Shown here: positions 6,001-60,520 of the stretch, piece after piece | How the letters are laid out: every line of letters starts with the position of its first letter | Position numbering within the stretch: position 1 is the first letter of the stretch | Assembly: GCA_949361645.1 (NCBI GenBank) | Contig: OX442415.1 | Coordinates: 2,364,713-2,428,712, forward strand | Source: Spongilla lacustris | Taxonomy: Eukaryota > Porifera > Demospongiae > Spongillida > Spongillidae | Direction of reading: 5' to 3' | Length of the DNA stretch: 64,000 bases | The notes under the pieces: generated by a model | Databases searched by the model: none | What the model was told of the DNA's origin: nothing | The model's input: the letters and a program-made list of their open reading frames with translations, nothing else | Translations under genes and position numbers: made by a program

Positions 6001-7880
6001 GTGCCTCCATTTAGACAAGTGGTTGGAGTGCAATAGTTGATGTCATTAGAACAGTTTGTTCCATTGAATCCTGGTGCACATGTACAATTCGTGAAGGTAC
6101 CATATCCATCATAACAGGTGCCTCCATTTAGACAAGTGGTTGGAGTACAATAGTTGATGTCATTGGAACAGTTTGTTCCATTGAATCCTGGTGCACATGT
6201 ACAATTGGTGAAGGTACCATATCCATCATAACAGGTGCCTCCATTTTGACAGGTAGCTAGAGTACAATAGTTGATGTCATTGGAACAGTTTGTTCCATTG
6301 AATCCTGGTGCACATGTACAATTGGTGTAGGTACCATATCCATCATAACAGGTACCTCCATTTAGACAAGTGGTTGGAGTACAATAGTTGATGTCATTAG
6401 AACAGTTCGTCCCATTGAAGCCTGGTGCACATGTACAATTGGTGAAGGTACCATATCCATCAAAACAGGTGCCTCCATTTAGACAGGTAGCTAGAGTACA
6501 ATAGTTGATGTCATTGGAACAGTTTGTTCCATTGAATCCTGGTGCACATGTACAATTGGTGTAGGTACTATATCCATCATAGCAGGTACCTCCATTTAGG
6601 CAAGTGGTTGGAGTACAATAGTTGATGTCATTGGAACAGTTCGTCCCATTGAAGCCTGGTGCACATGTACAATTGGTGTAGGTACCATATCCATCATAAC
6701 AGGTGCCTCCATTTAGACAAGTGGTTGGAGTACAATGGTTGATATCATTGGAACAGTTTGTCCCATTGAATCCTGGTGCACATGTACAATTGGTGTAGGT
6801 ACCATATCCATCATAACAGGTGCCTCCATTTAGACAAGTGGTTGGAGTGCAATAGTTGATGTCATTAGAACAGTTTGTTCCATTGAAGCCTGGTGCACAT
6901 GTGCAATTAATGTAGGTACCATATCCATCATAACAGGTGCCTCCATTTAGACAGGTAGCTAGAGTACAATAGTTGATGTCAATTGAACAGTTTGTTCCAT
7001 TGAATCCTGGTGCACATGTGCAATTGGTGTAGGTACCATATCCATCAAAACAGGTACCTCCATTTAGACAAGTGGTTGGAGTACAATAGTTGATATCATT
7101 AGAACAGTTTGTCCCATTGAAGCCTGGTGCACATGTACAATTGGTGAAGGTACCATATCCATCAAAACAGGTGCCTCCATTTAGACAGGTAGCTAGAGTA
7201 CAATAGTTGATGTCATTGGAACAGTTTGTTCCATTGAATCCTGGTGCACATGTACAATTGGTGTAGGTACTATATCCATCATAGCAGGTACCTCCATTTT
7301 GGCAAGTGGTTGGAGTACAATAGTTGATGTCATTGGAACAGTTCGTCCCATTGAAGCCTGGTGCACATGTACAATTGGTGTAGGTACCATATCCATCATA
7401 ACAGGTGCCTCCATTTAGACAAGTGGTTGGAGTACAATAGTTGATATCATTGGAACAGTTTGTTCCATTGAATCCTGATGCACATGTACAATTGGTGTAG
7501 GTACCATATCCATCATAACATGTGCCTCCATTTAGACAAGTGGTTGGAGTGCAATAGTTGATGTCATTAGAACAGTTTGTTCCATTGAAGCCTGGTGCAC
7601 ATGTGCAATTAATGTAGGTACCATATCCATCATAACAGGTGCCTCCATTTAGACAGGTAGCTAGAGTACAATAGTTGATGTCAATTGAACAGTTTGTTCC
7701 ATTGAATCCTGGTGCACATGTGCAATTGGTGTAGGTACCATATCCATCAAAACAGGTACCTCCATTTAGACAAGTGGTTGGAGTACAATAGTTGATATCA
7801 TTGGAACAGTTTGTCGCATTGAAGCCTGGTGCACATGTACAATAGGTGTTGTTATCATATTCATTATAACAGGTGCCTCC
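1..7880. repeat. 117-bp coding tandem repeat with a higher-order 819-bp (7-unit) period
   Basis: The unit is exactly 117 bp (39 codons). Marker variants recur at multiples of 117. The variant gtactatatccatcatagc starts at 3991, 4810, 5746, 6565 and 7267 (spacings 819, 936, 819, 702). cacatgtgcaattaatgtag starts near 5141, 6896 and 7598 (spacings 1755, 702). gtcattgaaacag recurs at 1011 and 1830 (819). Blocks of about seven units have therefore been duplicated as wholes, on top of the single-unit array. Confidence 0.93.
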
Positions 7881-7909
7881 ATTTAGACAATTTTTGACCT
7901 GGCATATAT
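1..7909 (-). CDS. Giant exon of ~67 tandem EGF-like domains (partial, runs off left edge)
   Basis: On the minus strand this stretch appears open in one frame but carries no in-frame ATG, so it is an internal exon. Its 5' end is an acceptor (CTTCTAG) at 7910-7911, phase 1. Every 39 residues show six cysteines spaced as in EGF: C-x4-C-x5-C-x9-C-x1-C-x8-C. Typical pieces are NGGTCYDGYGTYTNCTC and CAPGFNGTNCSNDINYC. The DINxC start resembles calcium-binding EGF. Each repeat carries N-glycosylation sequons (NGT, NCS, NCT). Variation between copies is mostly synonymous or conservative (Y/F, CILA/CTPT/CTLA). The most upstream copy (7830-7909) is the most divergent. EGF arrays of this kind are extracellular adhesion or receptor modules; the ligand is unknown. 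The C-terminus and any membrane anchor lie outside the window. Confidence 0.88.
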
Positions 7910-7968
7910 CTAGAAGGAGGGGGAGAGGTACTTTGCATTTAATGAACACCAACTGAGAAGTAACTCAC

Positions 7969-20968: not shown

Positions 20969-22042
20969 CTAAAAGTAGTTTTCTTTATGTAGTCCTAAAA
21001 CTTCAACAATCTTTTGCGCTCTTTTAGTTACACATTTAGTAGCATTTTTAACCATTTGGTTCCGTATATCACTGATGGCATCTGATATGGCTTGTTTGAG
21101 CTCCGGGATGGTTTTGGGGCTCTGTGTGTACACAATTCCTTTCAGGTAACCCCAAAGCCAAATATCCAAAGGTGTCAAATCCGGACTTCTTGCAGGCCAT
21201 GGAATTGGCCCTTCACGGCCCATCTATCTGTCCTCGAAGGTGTTATATAGCCATTCTGTGACTTCATGAAAATAGTGAGATGGTGCTCCATCTTGTTGAA
21301 ATATTATTTCCTCAATTTTGTCCTCATCAAGAGATGATTGGAGATATGGCCAAAGGCGTTTTAACATTCCTAGATATGACTTTCCTGTCACTGTGCCCTG
21401 TTTAAAAAAGTATGGTCCTATGATTTCATCATTAAGGAGTCCACACCAGACCATGATGCCTTCCTTTTTATATGCCCTGTCAACTGTTTTTCGAGGATTG
21501 GTTTTGGCCCATGTGATGGCATTATGGATGTTTACTTTACCATTTAATTTAAATATTGCCTCATCAGTCCACAAAATATTCTCCTCATATTCATTGATTT
21601 ACTCAACCTTCTCCAACCATTCCTCTGCCCATTCCACTCTTTTCTCATGGTCTCCTACTTTCAGTTCCTGAACCATTCTGCTCCTGTAAGCTTTCATCTT
21701 CAAGTCTTTTCTGACAATTGTTCGTACTGTGCTATATGGTATATCTGTGGCACATGATATTCGACTCAATGATAACTCAGGGTCATCATTGATTTTCCTA
21801 TCCATAGCCTGTATGTTGACTGGACTTCTTCCACTTCTCCTCCTCCCTGAACGCTTACGATCATCTGTGCCACCAGTGTCATAGAATCATTTCACTGTCC
21901 TTAGCACAGTGGATGGGCTTAGAGTGCCATGTCCAGGATACTTCACCTTGAACTGTCTAACTGTTTCACTTGCATTTCTCGTTTCTGCATAAAGCATCAC
22001 AATAGTCACTCTCTGATCCTTTGTAAGCTTTGCTCCAGACAT
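20969..22042 (-). pseudogene. Mariner/Tc1-superfamily transposase, dead copy with three in-frame stops
   Basis: Read continuously on the minus strand from an ATG at 22042, the frame encodes an N-terminal helix-turn-helix (KLTKDQRVTIVMLYAETRN) and a second HTH (YSTVRTIVRKDLKMKAYRS). The catalytic DDE/D-type domain follows: LWTDEAIFKLNGKVNIHN holds the first Asp, FQQDGAPSHYFHEV the second, and WPARSPDLTPLDIWLWGYLK the third. One frame is kept throughout but is broken by single-codon stops near 21887 (TGA), 21599 (TAA) and 21225 (TAG). These are point nonsense changes rather than frameshifts, so the element is inactive. Clear terminal inverted repeats were not identified. Confidence 0.88.
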
Positions 22043-22089
22043 GCAGTACAAAATGATTTCAGTATGTAGTTTTTTTTCCTGCAGTGCTT

Positions 22090-22195
22090 TTATAGTGCAG
22101 TGGAGCAATTCTATTGGTTCTTGCCAATCACAGTGCTGGAGTGATTCTATTGGTTCCCGCCCAATCACAGTGGAGTGTTTCTATTGGTTCCCGCC
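22090..22195. repeat. Subterminal direct repeats beside the transposase
   Basis: Three near-copies of (a)gtg(g)agtg/caattctattggttcc-cgcc occur at about 22098, 22138 and 22171. They lie just upstream of the transposase start and may be binding sites within the element's end. Confidence 0.4.
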
Positions 22196-38600: not shown

Positions 38601-40862
38601 ATCCTGCTTCTTCAATAGACAATCAACAATGTTGTCATGGTGCTAAGCAGTATCCAAAATTGGCCAGCAACTGTGTTGGCGACACATGGCCCAATGTAAT
38701 AAAACTAAATGTAGTGAAAGTTTTTATATATTAACCCATTTTCATTTTTCAATGCAAAGAATTGTCAAATCATTTGAAGCAATTGCTTCCAATTTAGTTC
38801 AGCAGCAAAACTTTACATCACTAGTTTCTTCTCAAAACCAAACAACGTTTGTAGCTCAAAAGGTTTGTCTCAATACTCAGTGGATAACTTGTGATTGTTG
38901 AACTCATTTTCCATTACATATGTATATAGGTCTCTATAGCCACACTTACCACTAGTGGCACCAGTTATGACTTTTCAACTCAAAATGTTGACCATGGCAA
39001 CCAAACATCCACAATCACTTCCTATCCAAGTCCATCAAAATCCAGAGCTTCAGTTTTCCTGCCACCATCATTGTTTACATCTATAAACAAAATAGATGTT
39101 GGGATATTCTTTACACTTTACAATACTGCATCTTTCTTCCCACTAATTAATTCATCCAATACCACCACGATAGCATCTCTTATTCTAGGAGCCACTGTTG
39201 TGGGTGGAAGTGAAGTATCATTCGTAAATCTTACAATTCCAGTTCAATTCACTTTTAACATCCCATTCAATGTAAGCTACCAGGCTATGCAAAATGTGTG
39301 TCATTGTTACTGCTGGAACAGAATTATTCCAGGATTGACTGTGTGAGTTGGGACTTCAATGCGGCAGGCAAGAAAACATTTGGAATGTCAGTTTTATTTT
39401 GTTCAATGTAAATTTTGTCCATTTGTAGGAGGAAGTGCAAACTGGACCTCTGAAGGATGCACCACCAATAAAAGCAACACCTCCAGTAGCCAGATTGAAT
39501 GTCGATGTTTGCACTTGACAAACTTTGCCATTCTTGTGGTAAGTATTAGTAGTAGTATAGAAGTGAATTTACTCTATGGCTGTGTAGGACATCTCAAGTA
39601 GGATGGATTCAAACCCACAAATGTTGATACCTTCACGTGCTTTGGATATCATCACTTACATTGAAGTGTCACTGTCCCTTTTGGGCCAAGTAGTGACCAT
39701 TCTGACTATGTTACTGATAAAGTTAGTGGAAAGTTGATATGTTTTATTTTTCATCATTAATTTCCAACGTTCTTAGAAAGCAAAGGATTAAAGATGCTTC
39801 CAAATACCACATTCAGCTGTGTTGTGCTCTTATTGGAATGCTTTTGGTATTTGTAATTGGGATTGACAGGACTGAAACATTTGGAGGCTGTGTGACTGCT
39901 TCAGTGTTGATCACTCTGGTGGCTGTGATGTGGATGGGGGCGGAGGCTTTGTTCATGTTCCAGAAACTCGTCCTTGTGTTCTCCCAAATCACAAAATGCT
40001 ACATAGTTATTCTATCTCTCATCTGTTGGAGTACGTTGTAGCATCATACATTGTGAATATATGACATTAAAGTCTTGATTTTACCCAATAGTGATTCCAT
40101 TGGTTCCAGTAATCATTCCACTGGCTATTAAAAGAAATTTACTTATTAAACGAGACTCACATATGGGATAGTAAGTTCAGTTATGTAGACAATTGCATTT
40201 TTGTCTGTCATTATTTTACATTTTCACTTTCTAGTTGCTTTATCAGTAATTTCACAGCTTTTCTGGCTTCATTTCTGGTGCCTATACTACTGGTGCTCGT
40301 CTTTAACACAATCATATTCATCATTGTAATTGCGGTGCTAGTTAGACACGCTATACGACGATCAAATCGGCAGCAAAAGAAATTTGATATCATTCAGATG
40401 ATGACAGATATCACTGGCGTAGTTTTCCTCTTTGGTCTCACCTGGATCTTTGGAGCTTTTACTATCCTAAAAGCTGATCAAACCTTCCAGCTTATCTTCA
40501 CAGTTACTAACTCGTTTCAAGGATTTTTTATATTTATCTTATTCTGTGTCTTGAACAGCGATGTTCGACTGGTCTGGGTCAAAAAGTTACAAGGCAAACG
40601 TCTTGCTTCACTAAAGTATGTTACATCATCGATATCAACAAAACTAGGCACACTCATTCGAGGAATGCAGCCTAGTGAAAATAAATGTGAAGTCGAGCAC
40701 GATGAAACCAAAATGCGAGACATAACTGAAGAAATCGACACTCTAAGCCAATCTGATCAACCTTCGAACACCAGCCCATCTAGTCACATCAATATACAGC
40801 TTGCTGGTGAAACTATCATAAATTGCCACACATCCGATAAACAATCAGAAAGTGAACTGTAA
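35668..40862 (+). CDS. Adhesion GPCR with FN3, hormone-receptor-like, GAIN/GPS and 7TM domains (extracellular half frame-broken)
   Basis: FN3 exons: 35668-35925, 36011-36313, 36375-36600, 36663-36866 and 36928-37096. Next come 37149-37251 and 37754-37838 (VNATLRTIGVIEDPNLEMIC), then 37981-38395 with a hormone-receptor-like C/W pattern (NVTRNCIENMTWTEDASMCP). GAIN sequence covers 38468-39320. The GPS motif is split by an intron: CVSWDFNAAG (to 39367) and GSANWTSEGC...CRCLHLTNFAIL (39429-39538). The 7TM part is in exons 39650-39735, 39777-40030, 40092-40170 and 40235-40862. TM6 FGLTWIFGAFTI and TM7 FFIFILFCVLNSDVR are typical of class B2. The tail is Ser/Thr-rich. Frame breaks: TAA at 36124-36126, and shifts near 35880, 36540, 37190, 38396-38468, 39296 and 39735. 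Identity is certain; whether it is functional is not. A polyadenylation signal AATAAA follows near 40884. Confidence 0.82.
37602..37632. repeat. Poly-C tract in a GPCR-gene intron
   Basis: About 27 C in a row inside the intron between 37251 and 37754. Confidence 0.9.
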
Positions 40863-41085
40863 AGGTGTTACTATACCAGTAGTAAATAAATACCCGATCC
40901 TTGAGTGATGTTTTTTTAATACATGCTGCATGCTAATCATTAATTGTACATGTATGTTTATTCAAGTGTGCTATACATGTATACACCGTATGTGCCATTA
41001 TATAATGAAAGGGACTTGCTGTGATGTGTCATAAATGTATGTATCTATAAACCTGCATCAGTGCATGTGGTGTAAATATATTTAA

Positions 41086-41390
41086 ACAAGTAAATAAAAA
41101 AACTTCTCTATCAAGAAAGTGATTGGTGGGTCTGATGTAGGATTGGTGGTGCAAAAAGCAAGGAAACAAGGTACAGTATGTTAAAGTGAGGTTTGGTAGT
41201 ATCCTACAACTATAACAGTCCTACATTTGCAAATAGGCTTCTTCATTTTCAAATTCAGGACTGTGTGTTGTAAGAACTACCAAACCTCACTTTAACATAC
41301 TGTACCTTGTTTCATTGCTTTTTGCACCACCAATCCTACATCAGTACCACCAATCACTTTCTCGATAGAGAAGTTTTTGATTTACTTGTT
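41086..41390. mobile_element. Hairpin MITE (~120-bp arms)
   Basis: acaagtaaataaaaaaactt at 41086 is mirrored by the end of the element (ttgatttacttgt, to 41390). The arms share aggattggtggtgcaaaaag and gtacagtatgttaaagtgag as inverted copies around a ~60-bp loop. Non-coding. Confidence 0.82.
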
Positions 41391-41399
41391 CCCCTAATT

Positions 41400-42537
41400 G
41401 TTTTTTTCTCTGCCAGGAGTGTTCAAGGCTTAGTGCATTCATTGCAATGTATAGGACGCTTACTAGATTCCTCTTATGTATAATCTGAGTATATAGGCCT
41501 CTCAGGTATATTAAGGCAAGGCTTTTTTATTTTATGCAATTAACTGAGCGCGTGCGTACGTTGCTTGGTTTCAAATTACTAGTAGCAGCTGCTGCGTATC
41601 GATGAACAATACATGCACACGTAGCTGCAGATAAGCGTGTGGAAAATTTTAGTTTTAGGTGTTGTTTAAAGGATCAACTAAAGTCCCCTGACTATTGCTT
41701 CTTTGTTGTTTGGTTGCGTATCACCACCGCGATTTGTCGGAATCGAGTGATACCCCTAACACACATGCTAAGGATGTCCCTTAAACACCATCCTTTTTTT
41801 TCTTGTCATAACTGATTTCTGGATATGAGTTTGATACCCCCCCTTCCCCTTAAGAACATCCCGGAAAGAGCACAGGATTAGGTAGTATATATTCTTTGCA
41901 CATGTCATGCTGTACATGCAAGTGAAGTTGTGTCCACAGAGACAATTAGAAACTTGTGACTGTGGGCTAACCTGAAGATGGTGCAATGGCCGCATGTAAT
42001 CGTTGTAATAAGCAGTGTGACAGCTACAGAACTGATTAAACACGGTATTGTGGTGACTGCTGGATTGTACATGTGTTGATGACTTAAATTTGATTGCTTT
42101 TTGAAATTGATGATAAAAATAGCTGTCACACATTTAATTGACTTCTGACATCGTTTAAATATGCACATGTACATGAGTGACATATTTTCGATTCATTCAT
42201 TGATGTACAGTCTGTAGGAAGCAGAGAGGTAAATCCATAAACTGTAAGGCGTAATTTAAAAAAAGTGCCATTTTAACGTTCAATTGAAGCGATGTTAATA
42301 AATTACGCGAAACAGAAGGGCGTATTCGCTCGGGGAATGTTTGAAGGAATATTTTGAGAAATGGGGGGACATTTTCTCCTAGGAAAAAATGTCCCCCGGA
42401 CATTCTTTCCTAGGAAACATTGTCCGGCCCGACCATTTGCGCCAGGCCTAATTTGACAGCCCCTGCCAGTATATGCTAGGGACACTTTTTTTCTCTGAAA
42501 AACTGTCCCACTAGTGGCGTTGTGGCACACTCGCCAC

Positions 42538-45733: not shown

Positions 45734-48354
45734 CTGTGGCTGCCTCCTTTACCAGCTTGGAGTGCCACACCACAGCCTCCCTGATCAGCTTCATCATGGC
45801 CTCCACATCAGCTGGATGGGAGTGCTCAAAGGCCTCCGAGCAAACCTTGGTCGCCATGGTAGCAGAACGTATGGTCTCCGTGCGGCCATGTCTGAAGGCA
45901 GCAGTACTGCACGACTCATAGGTGGGGACACACCCCTTGTACTGACGATAGTAAGCAATCTGGAGAGGGATATGGTCACCTGGTCATGTGGTCACCTGGT
46001 CATGTGATCATGGTGATAGGACCACCAGGTCATGTGATCACATGATAACTACCACACATACACATGTAACACACACCCATCCCCTCTTCCTTCCTTCTCC
46101 CTCACAATCACACCCTCTCCCTTCCAACCACACCCTCCCTCATAGCCACACCCTCTCAATCCCTACCTGCAACGACAGCTGCAGTATGGCGTCAGGACTG
46201 AGGTTCACCTTCTTCAGATACTTCTTCCCGTACTGCTTGTGTTCCATCATGTTTATGGTAAGTGAGTTGGCTGCCTTCTCTGTGGCCACACGACCATCAG
46301 ATATCACCTTCTTCAAGGCCTCGGACAGTTTGAACTCCAGCCTGTTCAGAGGGACCCCTTCAGTGGAGGGGGAAGCCCCTGCGGGGGCGAAGGGACAGCC
46401 CCCGCCCCCAGGAACATAAGGTCGCGTGGTGGTGTCCCTGTACAGTTCATTGACCAGCCTCAAGATGGCCACCCCATCACCCCACGAGTGCTCAAAGTTG
46501 ACAGCAGCCATGCCTGGCTTGGTCACGATCAGTGAGAAGGACTTGTCAAACCATCTGCACCAGGAAGTGGGGTAGGGGGAGAATGAACAGGTATGACACC
46601 TCCCCATTATTAATATGACTCCTCCCTAATATTTAATAACCCTCGTAAAGTGTACCAAGGACAGCTTTTCCATGGCTAAGTGATAAATTACAATTACTTA
46701 TCATTACATGCAGCGCAAGCCATGAAGCTATTAAAGTTGGCCTGGGGACCACCTCGTGGTGCCCAGCCCACTTCTCCCTAACCTGTCATGAAGCCATGCC
46801 CCTGTATAGTAGAGCCCAACCCCCCTCCCCATTCCAATACTCCTTATTAGTGCCCCCCCTCACTACCTATTGGCCCCCCAGTTGTGCAGAAGGGCGTGGG
46901 AGATTTGCTCTTGTGCTGAAGCCTCACTGTCATCTAGGCACACCACAAACAGGGCAGAGTCTATCCTGCTCAGAGCACTGGCGTTGCTAGGGTCCGCTAC
47001 CAGCTGTTCCCTAGCCTCCGCCCACTTGTTCCTCTCCAGGGAGGTAAGGTAACTAAGCGGGTGGTCGAGAGGGGGAGGGGCATCCTTCAAGATGGATACT
47101 ATTTGTGAGTAGATGACAGAGGGAGGGACAGGAAGGCCTGGGGAGGAGGAGAGGTGAGGATGGGAGAGGGAAGGTAGGAAAGGTAATAAGAGAAGGAAAG
47201 GAACAAAAAAATTTTAATTGCTAGAAAAATGATGTAATGGTGATGCAATGGTGTCATATAATGATGATTATCTACATGTGATGTAATGGTGATGGGTCAG
47301 TGCCTTAACCCCCTCTTCCCCCTACCATTCCTCTGCAGTGCCTCCACCTCATAGAAGTGCCCTTGCCTCATCACCACAACATGGCGGCTGCCCTCGTAGC
47401 TGACCAGCTCGTCCTTATCTGGGCGAGGGATGCGGGTGGAAGAGAAGAGGCGAGTGTACTGGGACATGTCCAGGGGGAAGGCCTTGACCAAGAAGGCTGC
47501 ATACCAGGAGAAGGTGCTGGGAACATACCTATGGAGGGAGGGAGGGAGGGAGGGAGGGAGGGAGGGAGGGAGGGAGGGAGGGAGGGAGGGAGGGAGGGAG
47601 GGAGGGAGGGAGGGAGGGAGGGAGGGAGGGAGGGAGGGAGGGAGGGAGGGAGGGAGGGAGGGAGGGAGGGAGGGAGGGAGGGAGGGAGGGAGGGAGGGAG
47701 GGAGGGAGGGAGGGAGGGAGGGAGGGAGGGAGGGAGGGAGGGAGGGAGGGAGGGAGGGAGGGAGGGAGGGAGGGAGGGAGGGAGGGAGGGAGGGAGGGAG
47801 GGAGGGAGGGAGGGAGGGAGGGAGGGAGGGAGGGAGGGAGGGAGGGAGGGAGGGAGGGAGGGAGGGAGGGAGGGAGGGAGGGAGGGAGGGAGGGAGGGAG
47901 GGAGGGAGTGAGGGAGTGAGGGAGGGAGGGAGGGAGGGAGGGAGGGAGGGAGGGAGGGAGGGAGGGAGGGAGTGAGGGAGGGAGGGAGGGAGGGAGGGAG
48001 GGAGGGAGGGAGTTACTTATAATAATATATAACAAAAAACCATTGCACTGTACAAACATACATACATGTAGGTATGAAAAATTAGAGATGGACCAAGAGA
48101 TGGACTAACCAATTTTTTCTACCATATAGGGAAGTCCTATGCCATCAGCCATATCCAATGCACTCCTCCATTTAATGCAAAAGCCTCTGAGACATACATG
48201 TACATGTGCATATAAATTGGTGGCTATGATGGTGGCAAATGATAAACTGGCCGACACCACTTTCCCCATTTGATGCAATGTGCACAGAGAGGTGCTTAAG
48301 ATAGAGGGTGGCTTCACATCCCATCAGCTGAAACCACAAATACATAACTACAGT

Positions 48355-48387
<33 letters not shown>

Positions 48388-50727
48388 CACACACACACTC
48401 ACACATGCACACACACACCACACACACAACACACACACACACACACACACACCTGATCACATTCCTGAATGTCTCTGTATCACTCTTTTCAGGGTTAAGA
48501 TGGTACACTTCTGGCTCCAGCTTTCCGTCCACAAGGGCATTCCTGAACCTCACAGCTGAGTGGATGAGGTTAGTAGCCCTATCAGCCTGTCAATGAGGTG
48601 GGCATCATTAGGGAAAGGGAGGGCCAAAGAGGTGGGTATCATTAGGGAAAGGGAGGGCCAAAGAGGTGGGCATCATTAGGGAAAGGGAGGGCCAAAGAGG
48701 TGGGCATCATTAGGGAAAGGGAGGGCCAAAGAGGTGGGCATCATTAGAGAAAGGGAGGGCCCAAGAGGTAGGCATCATTTGGGAAAGGGAGGGCCAAACA
48801 GGTGGGCATCATTAGGGAAAGGGAGGGCCATTGTGGTCAGTGGATTCCGTACTGAAATAGGTCACATGTACATGTACATGTAGCAGATGCATATGTACTT
48901 GATAGCATACGTTAGGATATGTTAGGATATGTGTTGGGATATATGTCTTATGGCTTATCAATAACATGTACATGCTCCATGGCTTTGTCGTGCACTTGAG
49001 CATGTAAGTCTGAGAGGTAATGTACATGTATGCACACATGTACAGTAGCTGATCTTATACCACATGGATCTAGCATTTCATGTCCGGGTGGTGTCTACTC
49101 CATCCTCATGAGGGGACTCAAGGTCATGAGGTTTGTGACCCGTCAAAGTTTTTGACCTTTTCTATCTGCCAGACTATCATGCATGAAATGACCCCCCCTC
49201 CCCCCCATACACAAGACCTGGTCTACCCCGTCCTCCCCCTCCCATGCCCCACCACACCTCCCACCCCCACCACACTTCCCACCCCCACCACACCTGGTCA
49301 TTGCTCCTGGGGTCAGGCTGCAGGCCTACATAAGGATTGTAGTTGAGCATGATGGAGCGTCTGTCTGCCAGGTACATGTCGAACCATGGGCCTGGTGAAG
49401 TGTGAGAATGGGCACATGATGTGTGTGTGTGTACATGTGCAAGGTATTGTACATGTGTGTACATGGCGTGCATGTGTACAAGATATGGTGTGCACACATG
49501 TGTGGCACAATCACAACCCCCACCTGATATAAAGCTGGTGTGCTTGTTCTGTTGGTCATTGTGGACCAGCTGACGGTTCAGTACTGGAGGGGAGGAGTAC
49601 AGAAGACCTTAACCCTTTAGTTCCTCTAGACAGCATGCCTTAACCCTTTATAACCTAAGCCCTTAATCCTTTCGTTCCGTAGATAGGACCCTCTCAGTCC
49701 AAATGTGGAAACAACACTATTTATGTTACAAGGTCGGACACATATAGCATACAATAATCACACCCACCCTCTCCTTGCCACGCCCACCCTCTCCTTACCA
49801 CACCCACCCTCTCCTTACCACACCCACCCTCTCCTTACCACACCCCATCCTCTCCTTACCACACCCACCCTCTCCTTACCACACCCACCCTCTCCTTACC
49901 ACACCCACCCTCTCCTTACCACACCCACCCTCTCCTTACCACACCCACCCTCTCCTTACCACACCCACCCTCTCCTTACCACTACCACACCCACCCTCTC
50001 CTTACCACACCCACCCTCTCCTTACCACACCCACCCTCTCCTTACCACACCCACCCTCTCCTTACCACACCCACCCTCTCCTTACCACACCCACCCTCTC
50101 CTTACCACACCCCATCCTCTCCTTACCACACCCACCACCTCCTTACCACACCCACCTTCTCCTTACCACACCCACCCTCTCCTTACCACACCCACCCTCT
50201 CCATCCTCATACTTGGATGCATAACTCTAATAACCAGAGCACACAATAATATTTCGGGAATTCAACCCCCCTCCCCCACAAACACGCACACACACACACA
50301 CATAACTCACACCCAAATATAAACACATAACGTTAACACCAACTACAGAAATATTAAAACTCACTTTCCCCGTCTCCCCCGCTGCGACCAAATTCGTGCA
50401 CAACTTTCTCCGTGTGTTGGTACTGTTGCTGGGTGAGCAGTGGGCGGGCCGCATCCAGGTACCGCCTACAAGTATCCGCCAGCTTAGGTATGGGAAGTCT
50501 GGGGAGGCTAGGCTGGAAGTGCATGGTGGGGATCTTGCTGTACTGGATGTAACGGTCATCCCTGTCCCTTGATGAATAGACGGGCAGCGAGGAACTGGAA
50601 GAACAGGCAAGGCAGAGCCATATGACGATACGTACTCAGTAAATGGATCTCGTATCGTATAAAGGGAACATTACCTCAACGTTCGTCTGAACGCATCCCG
50701 AGGTCGTAAAATTACGCTGGGACCCCT
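44064..50727 (-). CDS. CPT2: Carnitine O-palmitoyltransferase 2 (mitochondrial)
   Basis: Ten exons with fully compatible phases: 50727-50675, 50594-50365, 49583-49524, 49391-49294, 48586-48453, 47528-47326, 47137-46867, 46554-46167, 45959-45734 and 44395-44064. Together they give about 670 codons, close to animal CPT2 (~660). The enzyme transfers long-chain acyl groups from carnitine to CoA in the mitochondrial matrix for beta-oxidation. Family blocks in order: [82 protein letters not shown]; the catalytic His in [60 protein letters not shown]. The Arg-rich N-terminal exon (RPRDAFRRT) suits a transit peptide. The start codon lies in an upstream exon not identified. A low-complexity insert sits after TTRPYVPG. 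No frame breaks. Confidence 0.95.
45655..45731. repeat. (CA)n microsatellite in a CPT2 intron
   Basis: About 37 CA units, directly adjoining the donor of the 45959-45734 exon (ACAG/GTATGTGTGTG). Confidence 0.95.
47530..48012. repeat. ~480-bp (GGGA)n tetranucleotide array abutting a CPT2 splice acceptor
   Basis: About 120 units, pure except for three or four gtga variants at 47908, 47916 and 47972. On the coding strand it reads (TCCC)n and ends only a few bases before the acceptor CATAG at 47529-47530. Confidence 0.97.
48358..48452. repeat. Interrupted (CA)n microsatellite next to a CPT2 donor
   Basis: CA-rich run with t and cca interruptions. It directly follows the donor of the 48586-48453 exon (CAG/GTGTGTGTG). 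Confidence 0.93.
48595..48832. repeat. 34-bp minisatellite in a CPT2 intron
   Basis: Seven units of gaggtgggcatcattaggga aagggagggccaaa with few differences. Confidence 0.93.
49765..50205. repeat. 20-bp minisatellite (caccctctccttaccacacc) in a CPT2 intron
   Basis: About 21 units, highly uniform, with one extra-base variant (cacaccccatcc) and one ccactaccac insertion. On the coding strand it is purine/G-rich. Confidence 0.95.
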
Positions 50728-50759
50728 CTGTCAGGCAACATACAGTACTGGGGATAACC

Positions 50760-53480
50760 GATTACACATACACACACGCTAGTATCACTTACGCTAAACA
50801 TTCCCCTTATTTCAATTTTACAATACGTCGTTAGTTAATTAGATCCTTGTGTGCATGTTTACATGTATGATGATCTATGGTAGATGCATGGATGTCCTTT
50901 ATTCAGATCTACATGTATAGATGTAATGTCATGCATGCATGTCCGCGACGTTTCCGAATAAATGCCATTAAATGGATGAACGTGGCGCAGTATTGTTTCA
51001 TACAGATAATTACTACATTGCTGGTTGGACTGATGTTCTGAAGGACATGCATGATGTTTGCCACTCCCCCGACTTTTATATATGCCGGTGTATACGCTTT
51101 TAATTTTTAAGCATTGGTTTGTGGATACTATATAGTACTCGTAATACTAAAAGGGTGTCTTACATTAATTAGTTACGTATGTGCAAAGTGTGTGATACTC
51201 TCCTGTTCCCCTGCTGAGAGAATAAAACTTGATATTCCATCAACACCTGACAGCAAATTTTTTACACGGTGATAACGCGTACGTATACGTTCACCAGCTT
51301 TGACATGCATTGGCATTTTGCTGCAGGAGCACTATAGCTATACATGTATTCACTTTTCATCCTAAACTTCACTGACAGTTAAAAAGTATTACAACCAGGT
51401 CCGGCCACTTGGCTAGGGGTTATATTGTACAATACAATTGTTGACAAGCACACAAACAACTGAGTACAGTTCATTTTCTTGGGAGTGTTTGGTGATGGGA
51501 GTGGACCAGGATTGATTGGCATTAGCTCTAGCCAATAACAAGCTGAGGCTTGGACTGTAATGGGTAACTGAGCCACCACCTTAGGCAGAAGAGGTTCACC
51601 ATGATCTGGAATGATTCACAGCCAACTTCTAGGTGTAAGGTGTTGTACACCACATTGTGTGAAGAGTGCTGTGCCTGGTTCTTCCTCCTCCTTTGCATGG
51701 GACACATAACCCAGAGGGGCCAAGTGCACAGTTGTGGGACGTCCATTAAGGTCAAGGAGCAGTCCAAATCCACACGGAGGTGACAATACAGTTGAACTAC
51801 ATCAAACAGTTGGGAGTATGGCCCTCCAAGCTCCTTATGAATATGAATTGACACTAAGCTTAAAGAAAATGGCAAAAAAAAATAATACCCACACAATAAT
51901 ACACAATTTAACTTACTTTATTGCTGGATTTTGACCAAAAACCAAATTTCAAGATGGCACAAAAATTAAAACCCACACAATAATAGACACTTCAACTTAC
52001 TTTTTTTATTAAGACGGACTGAAGAACAGAACATCAAGATGGCACAGAAATTAAAACACACACAATAAAGTGAATGAACTAACTTTGTTGCTGGATGTTG
52101 GACACAACACTCTGCCCAGACCACCACCACAACTTGTGTGAATAGCACTCAAGACCACACCCACTGGTGTCAGCATCCATTTGATGGAGATGTGAAGGAT
52201 GAGTTCTCAATCTGAGGGCCCTCAGGTTGGAGGTGGTGATGTGGAAGTGGTGGTGTGGTGTGGCATGAATTCTTGATGTGGTTGTTTACTTTGACTTGAG
52301 GCTCCACCTCCCCCACCTCATAAGTATAATAAAAATGAGGAAAGCATGTAGCTTTCACTGCAATCTCGACAGCTGGAGATAAGATGATGGTGTTTGTTGG
52401 TGGGACGTATTACACCATTGCTTGTGCAAACATCAATCTGTGCACCATCCATAGTAGTTTGTGAAGCAATTCCTTGAAGATCCCATTAGACATCTGCAAT
52501 GGACAAATTACATATATATATATATATATGACTCTAGGTCAACACTAAAAGCTGTCATGTGTAACTTACCTGGTGCATGCTAAGAATGGCTACAGAAATC
52601 AGCTGTAGTGCAATACTTACTGGCATTTGCTCTCTAGCTCCATTCAACTGTTTAACAAAGTAGATTTGTTTGGATTTTTCAGCAGGCAACGTAGGTGAGA
52701 GTGCAGTATGTAGAAACACAGAAGAGGGCCAAATTGGAACAGCTAAATTAGTTAATTTAGAAACGGAAGAAGGTAATATGACTCTAAGATCGATGCTACA
52801 TTTGTGTTTTGATCAAAATTCGTGTTTCAAGACAAGGTCCAATCTTACAGCAGTCTGAGGTGAGACATCGTCATTGTGCTTGCGCAAAACCTTACTAGAT
52901 TTTACATCTCACCACATTATTTACAGCGCGCGCAACGAGCATTTCAATAATAAGTCTATGTGTAGGAATGACCAGTATGTATGGGACTGAAGCAATTGAT
53001 TAGTGCATGCGCAATAATAGAAATGACAGACAATAACTGCAATAAGTACTCTACAGAAAACATGTGTTCTTCAACGCGCTTAACTTGTTACCGGATTTCT
53101 TTATGTTATAATGGCTCCGATAAACCTCTAGCTCAGGCTTTTTCCATGCATGACAAAAGGTCTTTTGCAAGGTCAAGCTTCTCAAAGGACACTCTTGCCT
53201 TCTTCTTGGAAGACAACCGGTGTACGTTAGTCATAAAGGTACCAACTGCTAGAGGTGAAGGGAAATTTTCATGCATTATTAATGTAACTAACGTAGCTCC
53301 ATGATTAATAATTTCCTTAAAATGTGTACGTATAACGTAATACTGTCCAAACATTATACTTAAAACAAAATGGTACAAGAATGCAGAGCACCTGATTCTT
53401 AGTCCTAGTTAAACCATTAATGTTTGGCAGTTACAGCAGCAATGTTATCAGCAACGTTTGGCTGCTACAGGAAAAGCCTG
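50760..53480. other. Intergenic stretch between CPT2 and the borosin-like gene
   Basis: No domain recognised on either strand. It contains a three-copy ~90-100 bp repeat (about 51870-52110) and an (AT)n run at 52513-52529. It should hold the CPT2 first exon and promoter and the 3' UTR of the borosin-like gene. Confidence 0.4.
51870..52110. repeat. Three-copy ~90-100 bp tandem repeat
   Basis: aagatggcacaaaaattaaa, cacacaataatagacacttc and aacttactttattgctggat recur with variation three times. Confidence 0.6.
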
Positions 53481-53489
53481 CGTAACTAT

Positions 53490-55769
53490 TTATGCCACAC
53501 CAACACTTGCAGTAATAGCATATTGCTCAGCTGCAAAATCATTGATGCAATCACCATTTTCCATTGTACAATTTTCAAGCTCTTCAGTGGCAATTTTTCC
53601 TTGTGATGAAATGATATTAAATTTTGTAACCTGGATCACAGGGACTGTGTCGTCTTTCAGTGGCACACTGTGGATCACAGGGACCGTGTTGTCTTTCAGT
53701 GGCACACTGTGAATCACCGGGACTGTGTTGCCTTTCAGTGGCACACTATGGATCACAGGTATTGTGTTGTCTTTCAGTGGCACACTGTGGATCACAGGGA
53801 ATGTGTTGTCTTTCAGTGGCACACTGTGGATCACAGGTATTGTGTTGTCTTTCAGTGGCACACTATGGATCACAGGGACCGTGTCGTCTTTCAGTGGCAC
53901 ACTGTGGATCACAGGGACCGTGTTGTCTTTCAGTGGCACACTGTGGATCACAGGGACCGTGTCGTCTTTCAGAGGCACACTGTGGATCACAGGGACCGTG
54001 TTGTCTTTCAGTGGCACACTGTGGATCACAGGGACCGTGTTGTCTTTCAGCGGCACACTGTGGATCACAGGGACCGTGTTGTCTTTCAGCGGCACACTGT
54101 GGATCACAGGGACCGTGTCGTCTTTCAGTGGCACACTATGGATCACAGGGACCGTGTTGTCTTTCAGTGGCACACTGTGGATCACAGGGGGACCACGTTG
54201 TCTTTTAGTGGCACACTGTGGATCACAGGGACCGTGTTGTCTTTCAGTGGCACACTGTGGATCACAGGGACCATGCTATCTTTCAGTGGCACACTGTGGA
54301 TCACAGGGACTGTGTTGTCTTTCAGTGGCACACTGTAAATCACAGGAACTGTGTTAATGATTGATGCATCTGGTGCCAAAATTAAATCATTTGCAGACCT
54401 CATGTTTTGAGGAGTACAGATTAGAGGAACTGTCGCAGGTTTAGTTGTCTTGAACTGCTTGTCTGATATTTGTCTGCCATTAGTTAGGTTTTGCAAAGGA
54501 TGAGCATTAGTGAAATGCTTTTGCTCATCGGCCATCGATATCAGCATACAAGCCTATAGATACCCAGCATCACCACTCAGAACTTGAGATGCTTCAGTTT
54601 CATTTAGTCCAAAGTTTGCCATAGCATACTTAGGATTATCTGCATGCATCTGAAGAGCTTTTGCATTGGTACTGAGTTCGGCCATGTAGTGGGAAATCTT
54701 GGTTGCAGGTGGACAAGTGAATCCCACTGGGACATTTGAGTTATGCAGGTGAGCAATTGCTTCTTTCTCCATACGTCCATACTCAAATGTAGGGTGGCTA
54801 TCGACATTACACAACTTCTTTGCTTCTTCCAAATTCTTCACAATTCCAAGCCGGACAGCCATTTCTCTGTCAATATGGAGAGCATCCTTTGGTGGAATAT
54901 TGAGCTCCAATGTAGTGAGTGATTAGATGTTCCGGCCCATACACGGCATTAAGTCTTTCAATGAGAACGTGAAAGCCGCGATTAGCATAACCATATTGGT
55001 GATACCCAAGATCTCCCACACATCCAACTTGCCACAGAATGACGTGTGCATCAGTAAGAATGGTGCGATTATGAAGCAGCATGCAGGTCAGTGGCTTCTA
55101 ACGACTGCGCTCCAGGATGAGCAGGGTCCACACCCAGGTCAGCAAAGAGGCAATCCTCAGCTGAGATGGCTGGTAACATGAATGCTTCAATGCCTATATA
55201 CGTACAGATGACAAGTGATGCTGCAGTGATATTGTGGGGCATCAGGCATTACCACAATTGGCTTTGCCACTCCACCGTTGTTTATATAAATAATTTATAT
55301 ACACAAGAGTATAATTATAGCGGATACCAAATACATACAACAAGTTCGTGTAGTGTTATGGTAACTGCATGCTATATGTACATCAACAATAGTATAGTAC
55401 ATGTACCTTGTTTTGTCGCGATTGCAATGGCACGATGCGATGGCTGTACAAAGACCCCAGGATGGCCGTAGAACACACCAACAGTTAGAAGTCCCTGTCT
55501 TGCATAATACAGCAACGCTTCAGACATCTGTACGTAAGTGTCGTATCGCCTTTTGTCCTCAGCATAGAAGACGCGGAGGTTCAACGCATCGGGTCGCATT
55601 TCTAAAATGTACACTTCGGTGACAGGGTCCGCCACACAATACAAAACTACATCTCCATTTCTGATGTACGAGGCGGCCTCCAGGGAGAACTGTCCGACGC
55701 TTTTTATGCCAGATCCGACGATTACCAGCTTTCCGCCGCCGTTTACTTTGGTCAACGAATGGTCTGAAT
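53490..55769 (-). CDS. Borosin-type precursor: self-acting peptide alpha-N-methyltransferase fused to a many-core peptide array (frame-broken copy)
   Basis: Exon 55769-55407 and exon 55193-53490, joined across a 213-bp phase-1 intron (CAAG/GTACAT ... TATATAG/GC). Exon 1 carries a tetrapyrrole-methylase fold with the SAM loop LVIVGSGI, then [20 protein letters not shown] and [11 protein letters not shown]. The Arg and Tyr of RRYDTY align with residues known to be essential in fungal OphMA (R72, Y76). Exon 2 continues with [28 protein letters not shown] and [11 protein letters not shown], a helical clasp-like region ([28 protein letters not shown]), then about 19 core-like repeats and a short tail ending TASVGVA. 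In known borosins the enzyme N-methylates backbone amides of its own C-terminus. Breaks: 4-bp net gain near 55085; about 30 residues missing with a frame change near 54912; TAG at 54554-54556; 2-bp gain near 54188. The start codon is unsettled: ATGGGTGCTAATACG with a GTATGT donor at 55905-55891 is attractive, but its phase does not fit. Confidence 0.85.
53632..54353 (-). repeat. 39-bp coding repeat: ~19 core peptides [13 protein letters not shown]
   Basis: Eighteen full 13-residue units and one partial last unit (DTVPVIQ). Variation is confined to few positions: N/D at position 1 (S once), T/M/V at 2, V/I/F at 3, H/Y once at 7, D/G once at 13. Every unit keeps two prolines, a Lys and a hydrophobic V/I/L core. 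The fifth unit carries a 2-bp insertion that shifts frame. A 2- to 3-residue KD(N/D) stretch separates the hydrophobic parts and is a plausible proteolytic boundary (inference). Confidence 0.95.
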
Positions 55770-55890
55770 CTGAAATAGAGGAGTTGCACCTGACGTCACG
55801 CGCGTACTATGCACGTATATTGCTATAAATATACACCGCGTGGGTACAAAAGAAGGCGGTGTTAAACGTATATAGTAACTTATTACATAC

Positions 55891-55905
55891 CGTATTAGCA
55901 CCCAT
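55891..55905 (-). promoter_or_regulatory. Possible first mini-exon / start codon of the borosin-like gene
   Basis: aaaATGGGTGCTAATACG is followed by a strong donor GTATGTAATA. Splicing to the acceptor CTATTTCAG at 55770 would give a frame one base off the methyltransferase frame. Either this is not the start, or a small indel separates them. Confidence 0.3.
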
Positions 55906-55939
55906 TTTCGTTTTTTTGTTCGTTTCCACTCTCGCACGA

Positions 55940-57900
55940 AAACATGAAAACCAAGAAATTTACGGTTTTAGCATCAGACGAACCATTGAACGTACATACC
56001 GTTAGTTATTAAGTTTGCAGTGTTAATAATTGCGGTAATATGGCTACAACGGAGGTGGAGGTTCCACTGAAAACCCAGTTTGTCCCAAGGGCGCGGGAAG
56101 CGCGACATAGCGGTTAACGTTGAATGCGGTGGGCATGCAGTACCACTTATGCGCACGAGTGTACCAGTTAATAGCTTAGCCAGAATTTGCCGCTACACCA
56201 TACACATTCTTTCTTGATACGAATCACTGAAAAACGTAAATAGCAACATACAAAATAGTATAAATAAATGGCAACGTACATCGCATACATAAATATAGCA
56301 ACATAAGTTTAAAATAATACATGACGCGCGTGACGTATGCATGAAATCGCTAGCCGTTTTATATGGAGCCATAGCTAACGACCTTAATTGAATTCATTGA
56401 ATCGCCCGGCATTTCTAGAAACTCACGAACAGTGATACTGTATTTAAATTGGACGCGCAGATGAATGCGGCAAGTGCTAATTCTGTTAAACATGAATTCC
56501 AATGGATCCATGCATGCAAACTGAAATGCATTTTTTAAAGGACTGTGATTTGAGGATGACAAACAATATTTGTGTTAGGAAGGATGGCTCATGTTAGCAA
56601 CCTCCAAGCTACATGTAGTGTAAGAGTGGCCTCCGGTACATAATGAAATGAGAACAACATACAGAAAATTCTTGTAAATCAATGGGAGGCTCTTTATGTG
56701 TATGTACCTGAGTTATCAGCAGTGCTTATTTCGTACATGTATAAGATAAATGTGTTTGACCACCAGGCATAAGCTAGCACTCAATAGTCAAATGTAATTG
56801 ATGTCTTTTATAGTATTGCCTGTGAATTATTTTTGATCCTGTTAGCTGATCAAGGAGTTCTGAGAAATGCCATTTCTGAAGTAGGTGGTAAACACATACA
56901 ACAGAGCCTAGCCCAACCACTTTGGTTTGTGTACTTCACAAATTCATTCACTCCCTTTAAAACTTATGAAACACAGGTTTATAGATCACATTCGTGTCAT
57001 CACACCTTTTGAATACAATCCATTAAACCAGTTCAATATAATGAACTTTATTTTAAGCATAAGGTCCATCACCCTCCACCCTCCTTCTATGAAGTGAGAA
57101 CACAGAGCTGGAACAAAGAACATTCAATGCTGACATAAACTCCCATCGATCACAGACAAGGGTTGCTTTCTTTTAACCATTCCAATGAATGATGGTAAGT
57201 CTGGATTGCGAACCTCCTTTCCAAAAAGTAAACCTGGAATGCACTGTTAGCTAACTTTATAGCCAAAAATTGCTCTTCCTTTGGCTGGAACCTCATGCCA
57301 TAGGACCACAAGGGGTGCCCTTCATCTAACCCAAAACTGCTCCTGTCCATCTGTCTGCAAAATGAAAGTCTTTAAGTAATCTGGACTACTCACTGTGGCA
57401 CAGCAACTGTTGCATAATTTCTGGTAATACCCAGTATGTGGTTCAGGCCATAAAATCTCAAGATGTACATGAATGATACACAAAAGCCTCTTACTTCTCA
57501 CTTTATCTCGATCCATTGCCTTCACCTTGCTAATTCTGGTTGCATCATACCTTTTTCAACTACACACCTCAAGTAAAACACAGTACTGCTTTATGCGAAA
57601 CTTGAGTCTCCTCTAAGTGTACCAAGTGGTCTTTAACTTTAAAACTACTGCTGAATATAATCTAATAGGATTTCACAATGTACTTTCAAACCCAACTGTT
57701 TGCCCCTACAAGAGTTATGTCACCAATTCACACACTCTATGCAAGTTCTTTTTAAATGATCTTCAAAACTATAACCAAATAATAAACTATAACCAAATAA
57801 TAAACTATAACCAAATAATAAACAGGAACAAACTCCTGACAGCTTGCACATTATAGATCACTCTCATGCATGCAGCTGAGTAGGACTTCACAATGCGCGC
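55940..57900. other. Non-coding stretch, nothing recognised
   Basis: No domain or repeat of note except three copies of ctataaccaaataataaa at 57768-57822. Confidence 0.4.
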
Positions 57901-57931
57901 CACCAACTGATTAACAGACAATGAGTTCATG

Positions 57932-58937
57932 CCACCAATTCAAACACTCTATGCAATTTAATTTGACCTTACACAGTACCATAACTTTCTAACAAATCAA
58001 GGCAGCAATTTTACTTCTCAGTTGCTAGCTGAGCTACATACATGTATTGATTGATGCACGTTCACCCGATTCGTAGAAGTCCCTATTATCAAGCACCAAA
58101 CGATCACATGGTGAGTAGTGTCGTCTTGAGACCTCTCCAAATTCTCTCTCACCAGCTTGCAGTTATTGCTTTCAGCGTAACTGTGCTCCTACATGCCCCC
58201 CACGTCATCAAGCTAGGCTAGGGTTCTCTTGCATCTTGACCATATATCATTCCTAAGAGGAAAATACAGTTAATTATCTATAAGTAAACAGGATTCACAT
58301 GCAGGCATCATTCAACACAGTATTTACAAGCGAAAGAAATTCAAGCGGTGTCCATATTGTGGTAGTTGAATGGTAGTCATTAATGAGTTCATGCCACCAA
58401 TTCAAACACTCTATGCAATTTAGTTCATGCCACCAATTCAAACACACTACGCATGTAATTTCTTTTCTTTAGTTCATGCCACCAATTCAAACACTCAATG
58501 CAATTTAATTTGACCTTACATGCACCGTACCATATAACTTTCTAACAAATCAAGGCAGCAATATTACCTCTCAGTTGCACGTATATTGATTGTTGCACGT
58601 TCACCCGATTTGTAGATTCACGCGCACCAAACGATGGCATGGTGGAGTAGTGTCTTAATTGAGACCTCTCCAAATTCTCTCTCACCAGCCGGCAGCCATT
58701 GCTTTCAGCTTCCAATGCGTAACTTACCAATGTCTCGTGCTCCTATATATATACATGCATGCCCCCCACGTCGTCAAGCTAGGCCAGGGTCCTCTTGCAT
58801 CTTGACCATATATCATTTCAAAGAAAGAAAATACAATTAATTAATTCACATGCAGGTGCATCATTAATTCGACACAGTTTTTACAAGCGAAAGAAATTCA
58901 AGCGCGGTGTCCATATTATACGGTAGTTGAATAGTCA
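57932..58937. repeat. Tandem segmental duplication (~450 bp, two copies)
   Basis: Copy 1, about 57932-58380, and copy 2, about 58471-58937, share tcatgccaccaattcaaaca, aactttctaacaaatcaagg, tgcacgttcacccgatt, ctccaaattctctctcacca, ccccccacgtc and tttacaagcgaaagaaattc in order. The spacer between them holds extra copies of the ttcatgccaccaattcaaac phrase. Confidence 0.85.
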
Positions 58938-59009
58938 TGTCGATTATTATTACATGTTTCATATACATGATGGAACCGCGCGGAAACGATACGGCGCTTC
59001 CTGTCCCAA

Positions 59010-59071
59010 ACTGCTATAAAAGCGACGCCGTCCGCCATTACTGATAAAAGATATTTCGGAATGTCAGACGG
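59010..59071 (+). promoter_or_regulatory. Candidate promoter and first exon (TATA-like box, ATG, donor)
   Basis: ctataaaagc at about 59014 is followed 40-50 bases later by atgtcagacg/gtaagc, giving a tiny coding first exon (MSD + 1 nt). The proximal region is CG-rich (cgcgcggaaacgatacggcg). No convincing second exon was found, so the gene is unnamed. Confidence 0.3.
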
Positions 59072-60363
59072 TAAGCTATATAAGTCTAGTTGCTACGTCT
59101 GCATGCTGCATGTGTGCATAAAAAATATAGTTATATATAATATACCGGTATACCCTGCTTCATTGTATTCATTAGCCTTCTCATTGTATAGCCGGCAAGT
59201 GGCCAAACTGAACCACTTATTTTCGTCAATCGCATTAGCAGCCGAGACGAATGATGGGGAGTTTGCAATTGTATACCGGCAGTACTGCATGAGCTTTATA
59301 CGGGGATATCCTTTGATCTCTGCTGTATGTAACTAAATATACAGTTATTACCTACATGGCAATATGCCGCATGCATGTAGGTTGACTTTAACATGTGTTT
59401 GTCAACATTTCGGTTCAAAATCGGTTATAACAAAAATGGTACCGTATACAGAATGGTACCTTTACAGCGTTTGTATCTTTGCAACCGTGCCAAATTTCCA
59501 GCATATTTTACGCGTGTATATGTTGTTTTCCGTATTTTCGCGCTGCCTTGTATATCGCGCACTCACGAATTCCACATGCACGATTGCGAATTCACGAATT
59601 CCACATATATGTATTATAGTGTTATACATGCATGCATGTTGAGATCGTATTAATAACACAAATACACTAGCTGATATATACAAATACACATTATTACGAC
59701 TTTACACTATAAGATACATATATAGACATGCATATAGGGCAATACATGCACATTAAATAAAAATGATAATGACATAAACTATTTAAGCATGACATTTGGT
59801 GCGGGAGCCCCTCAGACAAAGGTTTGTTGCTGGATTGCAAAAGTCAGTCGTGCTCTCATCCATCCCAATACCTCACTGTTTGACTTTTCCAACTCTTATC
59901 GAGTCATGTTGAGATCGTTGATTTCATAAAGCACGTGACATTTTGAGCACGCTTTGCGGAGGGTCTGAAGTCATTCTCATACCCCAACGGTTCTAAAAAT
60001 TAGAAGTTATATATGTTACATTACGAGGAATTGATGTGAGGAATATAACACTATTGAGTGTTACGTCAACACGTGCAATTAAGATGTCGACTCTCGAAAC
60101 TGAATGTGCAGTTCTTTAGCTACATCTGCCGCAGTATAGTACTGCAGTAGATCATCGATCTGTAGATGTGGCTAAATATGTTACTAATGCAGACCTTAAG
60201 GACTGAACTGGAATTTAAAGTTAGTTGATTTTGTGAAAATCGGCCGGCTGAGTTGGTGATTCGGGGACATGTAGGCTGTGTACTATAGATGGCATTGCTG
60301 GCCCCAGACCAGTCTGAAAAAGTTTGTTGGTGATGATTTGTTTTTACTATTAGATGTGATACA

Positions 60364-60520
60364 GGGGCGGATCCAGGATTTCTGGAAGGGAGGGGGGGGG
60401 GGGGGGGGGGGGTCTAATAACTATATTCACGGGAGGGGCGTGTCCCGTCCCGTAACCGCTAGGGGGTCTGAGGGAGCGTTGCAAGCTCCCCCAGCGCCCC
60501 CGCCGTTTTTTTTTACTTTT
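60364..60520. mobile_element. Short GC-rich interspersed element with G tract
   Basis: It begins ggggcggatccaggatttct, followed by a ~23-nt G tract, ggaggggcgtgtcccgtccc and a run of T. The layout parallels elements near 42.8 and 35.1 kb. Non-coding; probably a non-autonomous transposon. Confidence 0.5.

Follow-up and report, generated by a model that had tools for sequence, protein, structure and literature searches.

The freshwater sponge Spongilla lacustris carries a family of borosin genes, one of which lies in the 64,000-nucleotide stretch of DNA analysed here (the window; C1:2364713-2428712 of an assembly of 248.6 Mb in 51 contigs). Both PDB search and tree place a borosin-type methyltransferase domain at the window locus. 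Judged from sequence, this locus is quite probably a decayed freshwater-sponge borosin and its seven paralogues on contig C18 conserved pseudoenzymes, with active animal borosins, if any, more to be expected in bivalves and Oscarella. The family would not be of a new kind, as borosins are known and one animal borosin is already in print; of more note are the animal group and a conserved freshwater-sponge branch that is probably dead for methylation. Backbone N-methylation favours peptide stability and membrane crossing, and N-methylated peptides from marine animals are usually attributed to symbionts or to nonribosomal synthesis. Now that bivalve and sponge genomes are seen to hold borosin genes, self-production of such peptides by animals is directly testable.

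The chain of the window gene runs on the minus strand from 55806 to 53490 and is not continuously open. Motifs quoted in a first-pass annotation of this DNA were recovered on that strand by six-frame translation. The features of the locus, and of the duplicated block in which it lies, are as follows.

55407..55806, minus strand: exon 1, N-terminal half of the borosin methyltransferase domain, to ATKQ (PDB matches, active-site columns, splice donor)
55194..55406, minus strand: predicted GT-AG intron, phase 1, 213 bp (place and phase as in 7/7 C18 paralogues)
55088..55193, minus strand: start of exon 2, with the frame lost directly after EATD (six-frame translation)
54891..55079, minus strand: C-terminal methyltransferase part in a second frame, ending HYIGAQYST (tblastn to C18)
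54554..54901, minus strand: clasp-like piece in a third frame, ended by TAG 54556-54554 (matches to C18 paralogues)
54356..54553, minus strand: linker with a VPLICTP element, in the frame of the clasp piece
53632..54355, minus strand: core-like array, 18 units of 13 residues, N or D followed by 12 more (TRF, motif and unit-by-unit reading)
53490..53651, minus strand: frame after the array, stop at 53492-53490 (six-frame translation)
46687..60518: duplicated block of at least 13.8 kb; second copy at C1 3880000-3893836, 1.47 Mb away

Exon 1, whose frame is open from 55806 and whose 5' end is provisional, was searched as 55375-55806 against all PDB sequences. At E <=1 the best 25 of 30 matches were borosin methyltransferases, scoring 74-121 bits (dbOphMA, 2.9e-34; OphMA, about 3e-33; MroMA1, 4e-32; SonM, 1.9e-20 to 1.2e-19). 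The other five were chance matches (E >=0.17), and methylases of other kinds were absent at that threshold. The family identity proposed at first pass is thereby borne out. The window keeps Y66, R72, Y76 and Y98 together with GHPG (OphMA-based numbering, after excerpts of PMC6108569), and it is 65% identical to the database protein P0036 over 212 columns. Its C-terminal methyltransferase part matches the seven C18 loci by tblastn at E 9e-17 to 5e-14. Searched alone against the PDB, the clasp piece reached SonA only at chance level (E 0.53, behind kinases at 0.43). Against the C18 paralogues it matched their clasps at up to 39% identity (E 2e-21), and these clasps themselves match OphMA, that of L015 matching SonA as well.

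Methyltransferase, clasp and C-terminal core peptides had been proposed to follow each other on one chain. A methyltransferase, a clasp piece and repeats do lie in this order on the same strand, but the chain is interrupted and the proposed exons were stitched from three frames. The first frame break lies between 55087 and 55080. At the second, near 54901, about 30 residues (CKPFIDRKPLSEFLKPE...) present in all seven C18 paralogues are absent. TAG at 54556-54554 separates the clasp from the repeats, and a register shift near 54200-54197 leaves 4 units of the array in the clasp's frame and 14 in another. With its frame breaks, stop and register shift, the window locus thus lacks a core on the same open chain. 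Among 3640 candidates scored in the protein database, none was a relative of the window clasp and repeats at E <=0.01; with the gene interrupted and no such relative found, the suggestion that this locus makes a peptide was not upheld. The spliceosomal intron did hold: a GT-AG intron occupies 55406-55194, at the same place and in the same phase as in all seven C18 paralogues. Most likely, the window locus is a decayed gene, a recent pseudogene. The intact catalytic residues of so broken a gene could reflect either very recent decay or assembly errors.

The repeat array noticed at first pass is real. TRF reported a 39-bp array of 18.5 copies at 53632-54355, and a degenerate motif of the 39-bp unit gave 13 matches where 0.02 were expected. 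Units are spaced by 39 bp in 16 of 17 cases, the remaining spacing being 41 bp (54238 to 54197). When the array was read unit by unit, PVIHSVPLK was identical in 17 of the 18 units. Half of the distinct changes among repeats (12/24) were synonymous in the unit's frame, against 7.9 expected if the same changes were placed at random on the same bases, a borderline excess (p 0.054). High-identity copies of the array were limited to two places on C1, namely the window gene and its copy. A 1557-aa repeat frame on C14 with a 41% match to the 13-residue unit turned out to be an unrelated repeat.

The two copies of the duplicated block are identical over 9901 of 9901 bp and over a further 237 bp rightward, up to a sharp edge at 60518 beyond which nothing is alike. 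Left of 50382, 3701 bp hold zero mismatches, and two gaps (11 bases) are the sole differences. A microsatellite at 47533 is a length difference between the copies and not the end of the block, which continues leftward past 46687. Duplication of the whole window was ruled out by the sharp right edge and by the dissimilarity of window positions 40001-42000 to the sequence at the corresponding offset. The second copy would be an artefact of assembly or else the product of a very recent duplication. Because the copies are near identical, the lesions seen in both do not support each other independently. Some carnitine acyltransferase exons also lie in the block.

A genome search with exon 1 scored 12 candidates, 10 of which passed E <=0.001: two on C1, seven on C18 (L010-L016) and one on C13. 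All seven C18 loci have three exons, GT-AG splice sites and phase-1 introns and encode 673-701 residues without stops; in each, a single unbroken chain carries methyltransferase, clasp and tail. Their first acceptor is ambiguous, and the site that keeps the paralogues alike was chosen (less surely for L015 and L016); the choice touches only residues N-terminal of the methyltransferase domain. The C18 paralogues are under purifying selection, with dN/dS of 0.18-0.28 for the 7 pairs that fall inside either of two close groups and 0.21-0.42 for the 14 pairs taken across groups. In the stretch with the active site (codons 80-160) and in codons 240-280, fourfold sites differed between groups at 6/51, 7/50 and 7/50 positions in three pairs, against 68/117, 72/108 and 87/117 elsewhere in the same pairs. 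We read this low divergence as a sign of gene conversion between subfamilies. Across L010-L016, the apparent conversion affects the active-site block and the block before the clasp.

In PDB searches with exon 2 of L015 and L010, all better-than-chance matches were borosins. In C18-type proteins (L015, L010 and P0001 of Ephydatia muelleri), similarity to OphMA and MroMA1 extends into the clasp or right through it. The SonA borosin-binding domain matches L015 at E 0.0047 and profile A3, which includes bacterial and fungal rows besides animal ones, at 3.4e-6; exon 2 of L010 gave no SonA match in the PDB at E <=1. The roughly 280 residues after the clasp had no Pfam match in the three C18-type proteins scanned. 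Following a variable linker, a contiguous P-H/Q-V stands near the end of 17 of 18 C18-type tails (seven own and 11 database proteins); L013 reads P-LT-Y-V instead, and L014, P0003 and P0004 bear a polar extension beyond the motif. Val and Ile make up 4-24% of the last 25 residues of the seven C18 proteins (with tails such as FIPHVPTVCL), compared with 28-44% in four fungal proteins. Prolyl oligopeptidase matches (PF02897; 5 matches among 6 candidates) were confined to C15, with none clustered near the borosin genes on C1 and C18. The C13 place, L017 (C13:4287500-4297400), packs several decayed borosin pieces of the window type into about 5 kb, an arrangement like that of an old tandem cluster.

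The first-pass annotation had recommended a search of sponges for intact orthologues. Intact relatives do exist there, among them the seven C18 paralogues and two E. muelleri proteins, all nine with replaced catalytic tyrosines. These nine read F66, R72, C76 and P98, except for H98 in L014. The other 58 tree rows with letters at the site, the window included, read Y/R/Y/Y in 55 cases, the exceptions being P0021, P0022 and P0032; P0092, which comes without the active-site exon, stands outside this count. In excerpts of PMC6108569, the Y76F and R72A complexes of OphA are called inactive and that of Y66F active. For SonM, with active-site residues Y58, R67, Y71 and Y93, excerpts of PMC8429565 give kcat values 15-fold lower for Y58F, 84-fold for Y71F and 2-fold for Y93F, and activity of the Y58F/Y71F double mutant was not measurable. 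As the catalytic tyrosines are replaced and these mutants behave as described, the C18-type proteins have probably lost N-methyltransferase activity of the known kind. Since gene conversion seems to have crossed the active-site block, the nine altered sites do not count as nine independent observations, and the replacement common to them could go back to one event that preceded the divergence from Ephydatia and has been retained. We met no counterpart of this conserved tyrosine loss in the excerpts of borosin literature at hand, which came from searches aimed at subjects other than pseudoenzymes.

Relatives were found in further animals. The nearest named proteins to the borosin genes of this genome are those of E. 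muelleri: a search with A1, a profile of three of the seven own C18 proteins, returned 32 proteins, two of them from this species, and P0001 is 76% identical over 100%. Viral contigs scanned with A1 held no relative. With P0014 as query, 986 proteins matched at E <=1e-20, and the 120 of these listed include the named animals Pecten maximus, Ylistrum balloti, Argopecten irradians, Mya arenaria and Oscarella lobularis. Contigs bearing the relatives measure 1.0-63 Mb in the four bivalves and 2.7 Mb in Oscarella. Because intact relatives occur in this sponge, in other sponges and in several shellfish, the sequences suggest that animal genomes genuinely include borosin genes.

The annotated relatives from Oscarella and the four bivalves keep the catalytic tyrosines. 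Mya arenaria P0039 has 396 residues, of which 28-347 match OphA at 1.5e-79, and all its better-than-chance PDB matches are borosins. Its sequence has a methyltransferase domain, the start of a clasp, the catalytic residues and a putative Val/Ile core, and GHPG reads GHAG; it ends in GDVVVVAVVIIMA, with Val and Ile at 36% of the last 25 residues, inside the range of the four fungal proteins. P0036 likewise ends in a Val/Ile core, PTVVVVVIL. Since GHPG is altered in all four bivalves (GHCG, GHGG, GHCS, GHAG) and the scallop proteins are without a Val/Ile end, activity of the bivalve borosins cannot be taken for granted. The Oscarella protein P0051, an isoform of 279 residues, has no clasp.

We built a tree of 68 rows (the window, seven own proteins and 60 hand-chosen from 149 database proteins; 242 columns, LG+C20). 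The 15 named animal rows, which include the window and the seven own proteins, form one group with P0014, P0036 and P0092 (87/94), and this group joins 15 long forms (bacterial or unnamed) and P0012/P0013 at 97/91. The window, whose row adjoins the Spongillida clade weakly (80/12), thus falls among borosins, and the animal group stands apart from the basidiomycete OphMA group, which lies elsewhere in the tree. Under constraints named after inspection of the tree, uniting animals with the fungal OphMA group was 36 log units worse (p-AU 0.034), and a clade of named animals without P0014, P0036 and P0092 was rejected (p-AU 0.023). The tree is compatible with one old gene and many losses as well as with more than one transfer, and cannot tell between the two. 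By eye, repeated domains, each of about 100 residues, follow the clasp in the long borosins P0012, P0013, P0015 and P0047, for which TP_methylase is the sole Pfam domain listed, and P0034 and P0105 carry two borosin-like methyltransferase stretches in tandem.

Borosin types follow excerpts of PMC11285071 and PMC11395268. In the fungal fused borosins OphMA, dbOphMA and gymMA1, methyltransferase, clasp and C-terminal core share one chain. The window resembles OphMA-type enzymes in keeping the catalytic residues, and the Val/Ile core of Mya arenaria resembles that of gymMA1. Unlike the fungal borosins, animal rows group apart and the sponge genes have introns; the window gene is broken and bears a repeat array, and the C18 genes stand out by altered catalytic residues and an additional stretch of about 280 aa. 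C18-type proteins share a SonA-like borosin-binding domain with SonM/SonA, the type IV split borosins of Shewanella, but are fused rather than split. The long fused forms (about 640-860 aa, bacterial or unnamed, e.g. P0048 and P0136) also combine methyltransferase, clasp and a C-terminal extension, and P0048 shares a GK.W...EP...N element with the C18 genes by eye; unlike those genes they keep the tyrosines, and their tails differ.

The first-pass annotation knew of no animal borosin. One from Paramuricea clavata is, however, mentioned in excerpts of a 2024 paper (PMC11395268), in cluster 5 of a sequence similarity network. It is likewise of animal origin, a single coral sequence that is likened here by its description. 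Excerpts of the literature on animal and sponge borosins and on sponge ribosomal peptides, drawn mostly from outside subscription journals and preprints, gave no other animal borosin. Proline-rich macrocyclic peptides encoded by sponges (Lin et al. 2024) are cited in excerpts of PMC11382151. Being ribosomal and from sponge hosts, these peptides give sponge RiPPs a precedent. They are not known to be borosins.

The ancestral window gene would have encoded a SAM-dependent peptide N-methyltransferase, a clasp and some 18 cores of 13 residues on one chain, from which a protease would then have freed the cores, perhaps near the Lys-Asp joints of the window repeats. Activity of the ancestor and the role of the repeats as its cores are both inferred. 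The C18 paralogues are most likely pseudoenzymes, which would bind a tail, their own or a partner's, but not methylate it. More broadly, and only tentatively, animals from sponges to bivalves may have a borosin branch of their own, either old or acquired from bacteria, with some members making N-methylated peptides ribosomally, and with freshwater sponges holding a dead self-binding family while an active repeat-core gene is being lost.

Two readings would take the enzyme out of the animal or out of the family. A generic tetrapyrrole methylase of the cobalamin, siroheme or diphthine branch draws on the Pfam result for exon 1, in which the parent family PF00590 TP_methylase alone appeared (26.8 bits, cut-off 27.8), and on a siroheme synthase match in NCBIfam at E 0.007. 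We regard it as refuted, given the borosin scores and the absence of other methylases in the PDB search; with profile A3, siroheme synthase and cobalt-precorrin methylase likewise scored 16-21 bits against 233-550 for borosin methyltransferases. Sequence searches thus place the enzyme with borosins, not with other methylases. Bacterial or fungal DNA, brought in by recent contamination or joined into a chimeric contig, might be suspected, since borosins are best known from bacteria and fungi and since a block on C1 is duplicated. This origin is strongly disfavoured and highly improbable: one intron site is shared by eight genes, the family is spread over more than one contig (8 Mb and 31 Mb), close relatives occur in E. 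muelleri and further ones on large bivalve and Oscarella contigs, and the tree speaks against grouping with the fungal OphMA clade. Neighbouring genes are those of an animal, with carnitine acyltransferase exons on the same strand (PF00755; the name CPT2 is that of the first-pass annotation), a long EGF frame, Ig, fn3 and a secretin-family receptor; two further neighbouring frames had no match in the Pfam scan. The window gene is accordingly read as related to fused borosins and as resident in the nuclear genome of a sponge.

The other two readings concern what the window gene is. It may be intact in the animal, as the sponge's active borosin, with breaks that are assembly or haplotype errors. 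The four catalytic residues and GHPG, the likeness to P0036 and the canonical intron are as expected of such a gene, and the near-perfect recurrence of the block makes the contig suspect. We nevertheless consider this quite unlikely, as the four lesions are of differing kinds, one of them having removed about 30 residues still present in the C18 genes, and as more decayed window-type pieces lie on C13. Somewhat more weight, though still on the doubtful side, goes to the repeat being a non-coding minisatellite, open by chance, and the animal proteins structural or regulatory pseudoenzymes unrelated to peptide natural products. The degenerate C18-type active sites would fit, as would an array that follows a stop codon, shifts register and shows only a borderline synonymous excess, the three exon-2 proteins without a Pfam match and the restriction of PF02897 to C15. 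Against it stand the constancy of PVIHSVPLK, the C18 tail with its short conserved motif after a variable linker, and the Val/Ile cores that end the Mya arenaria protein and P0036. A decayed borosin with conserved pseudoenzyme paralogues remains the preferred reading.

Elsewhere in the window, minus-strand frames at 21227-22180 resemble a transposase of Tc1/mariner type; one of them was scanned against Pfam and gave no match. A 2654-residue open EGF-repeat frame occupies 3-7964, also on the minus strand, and 39 stretches of it match the teneurin EGF model.
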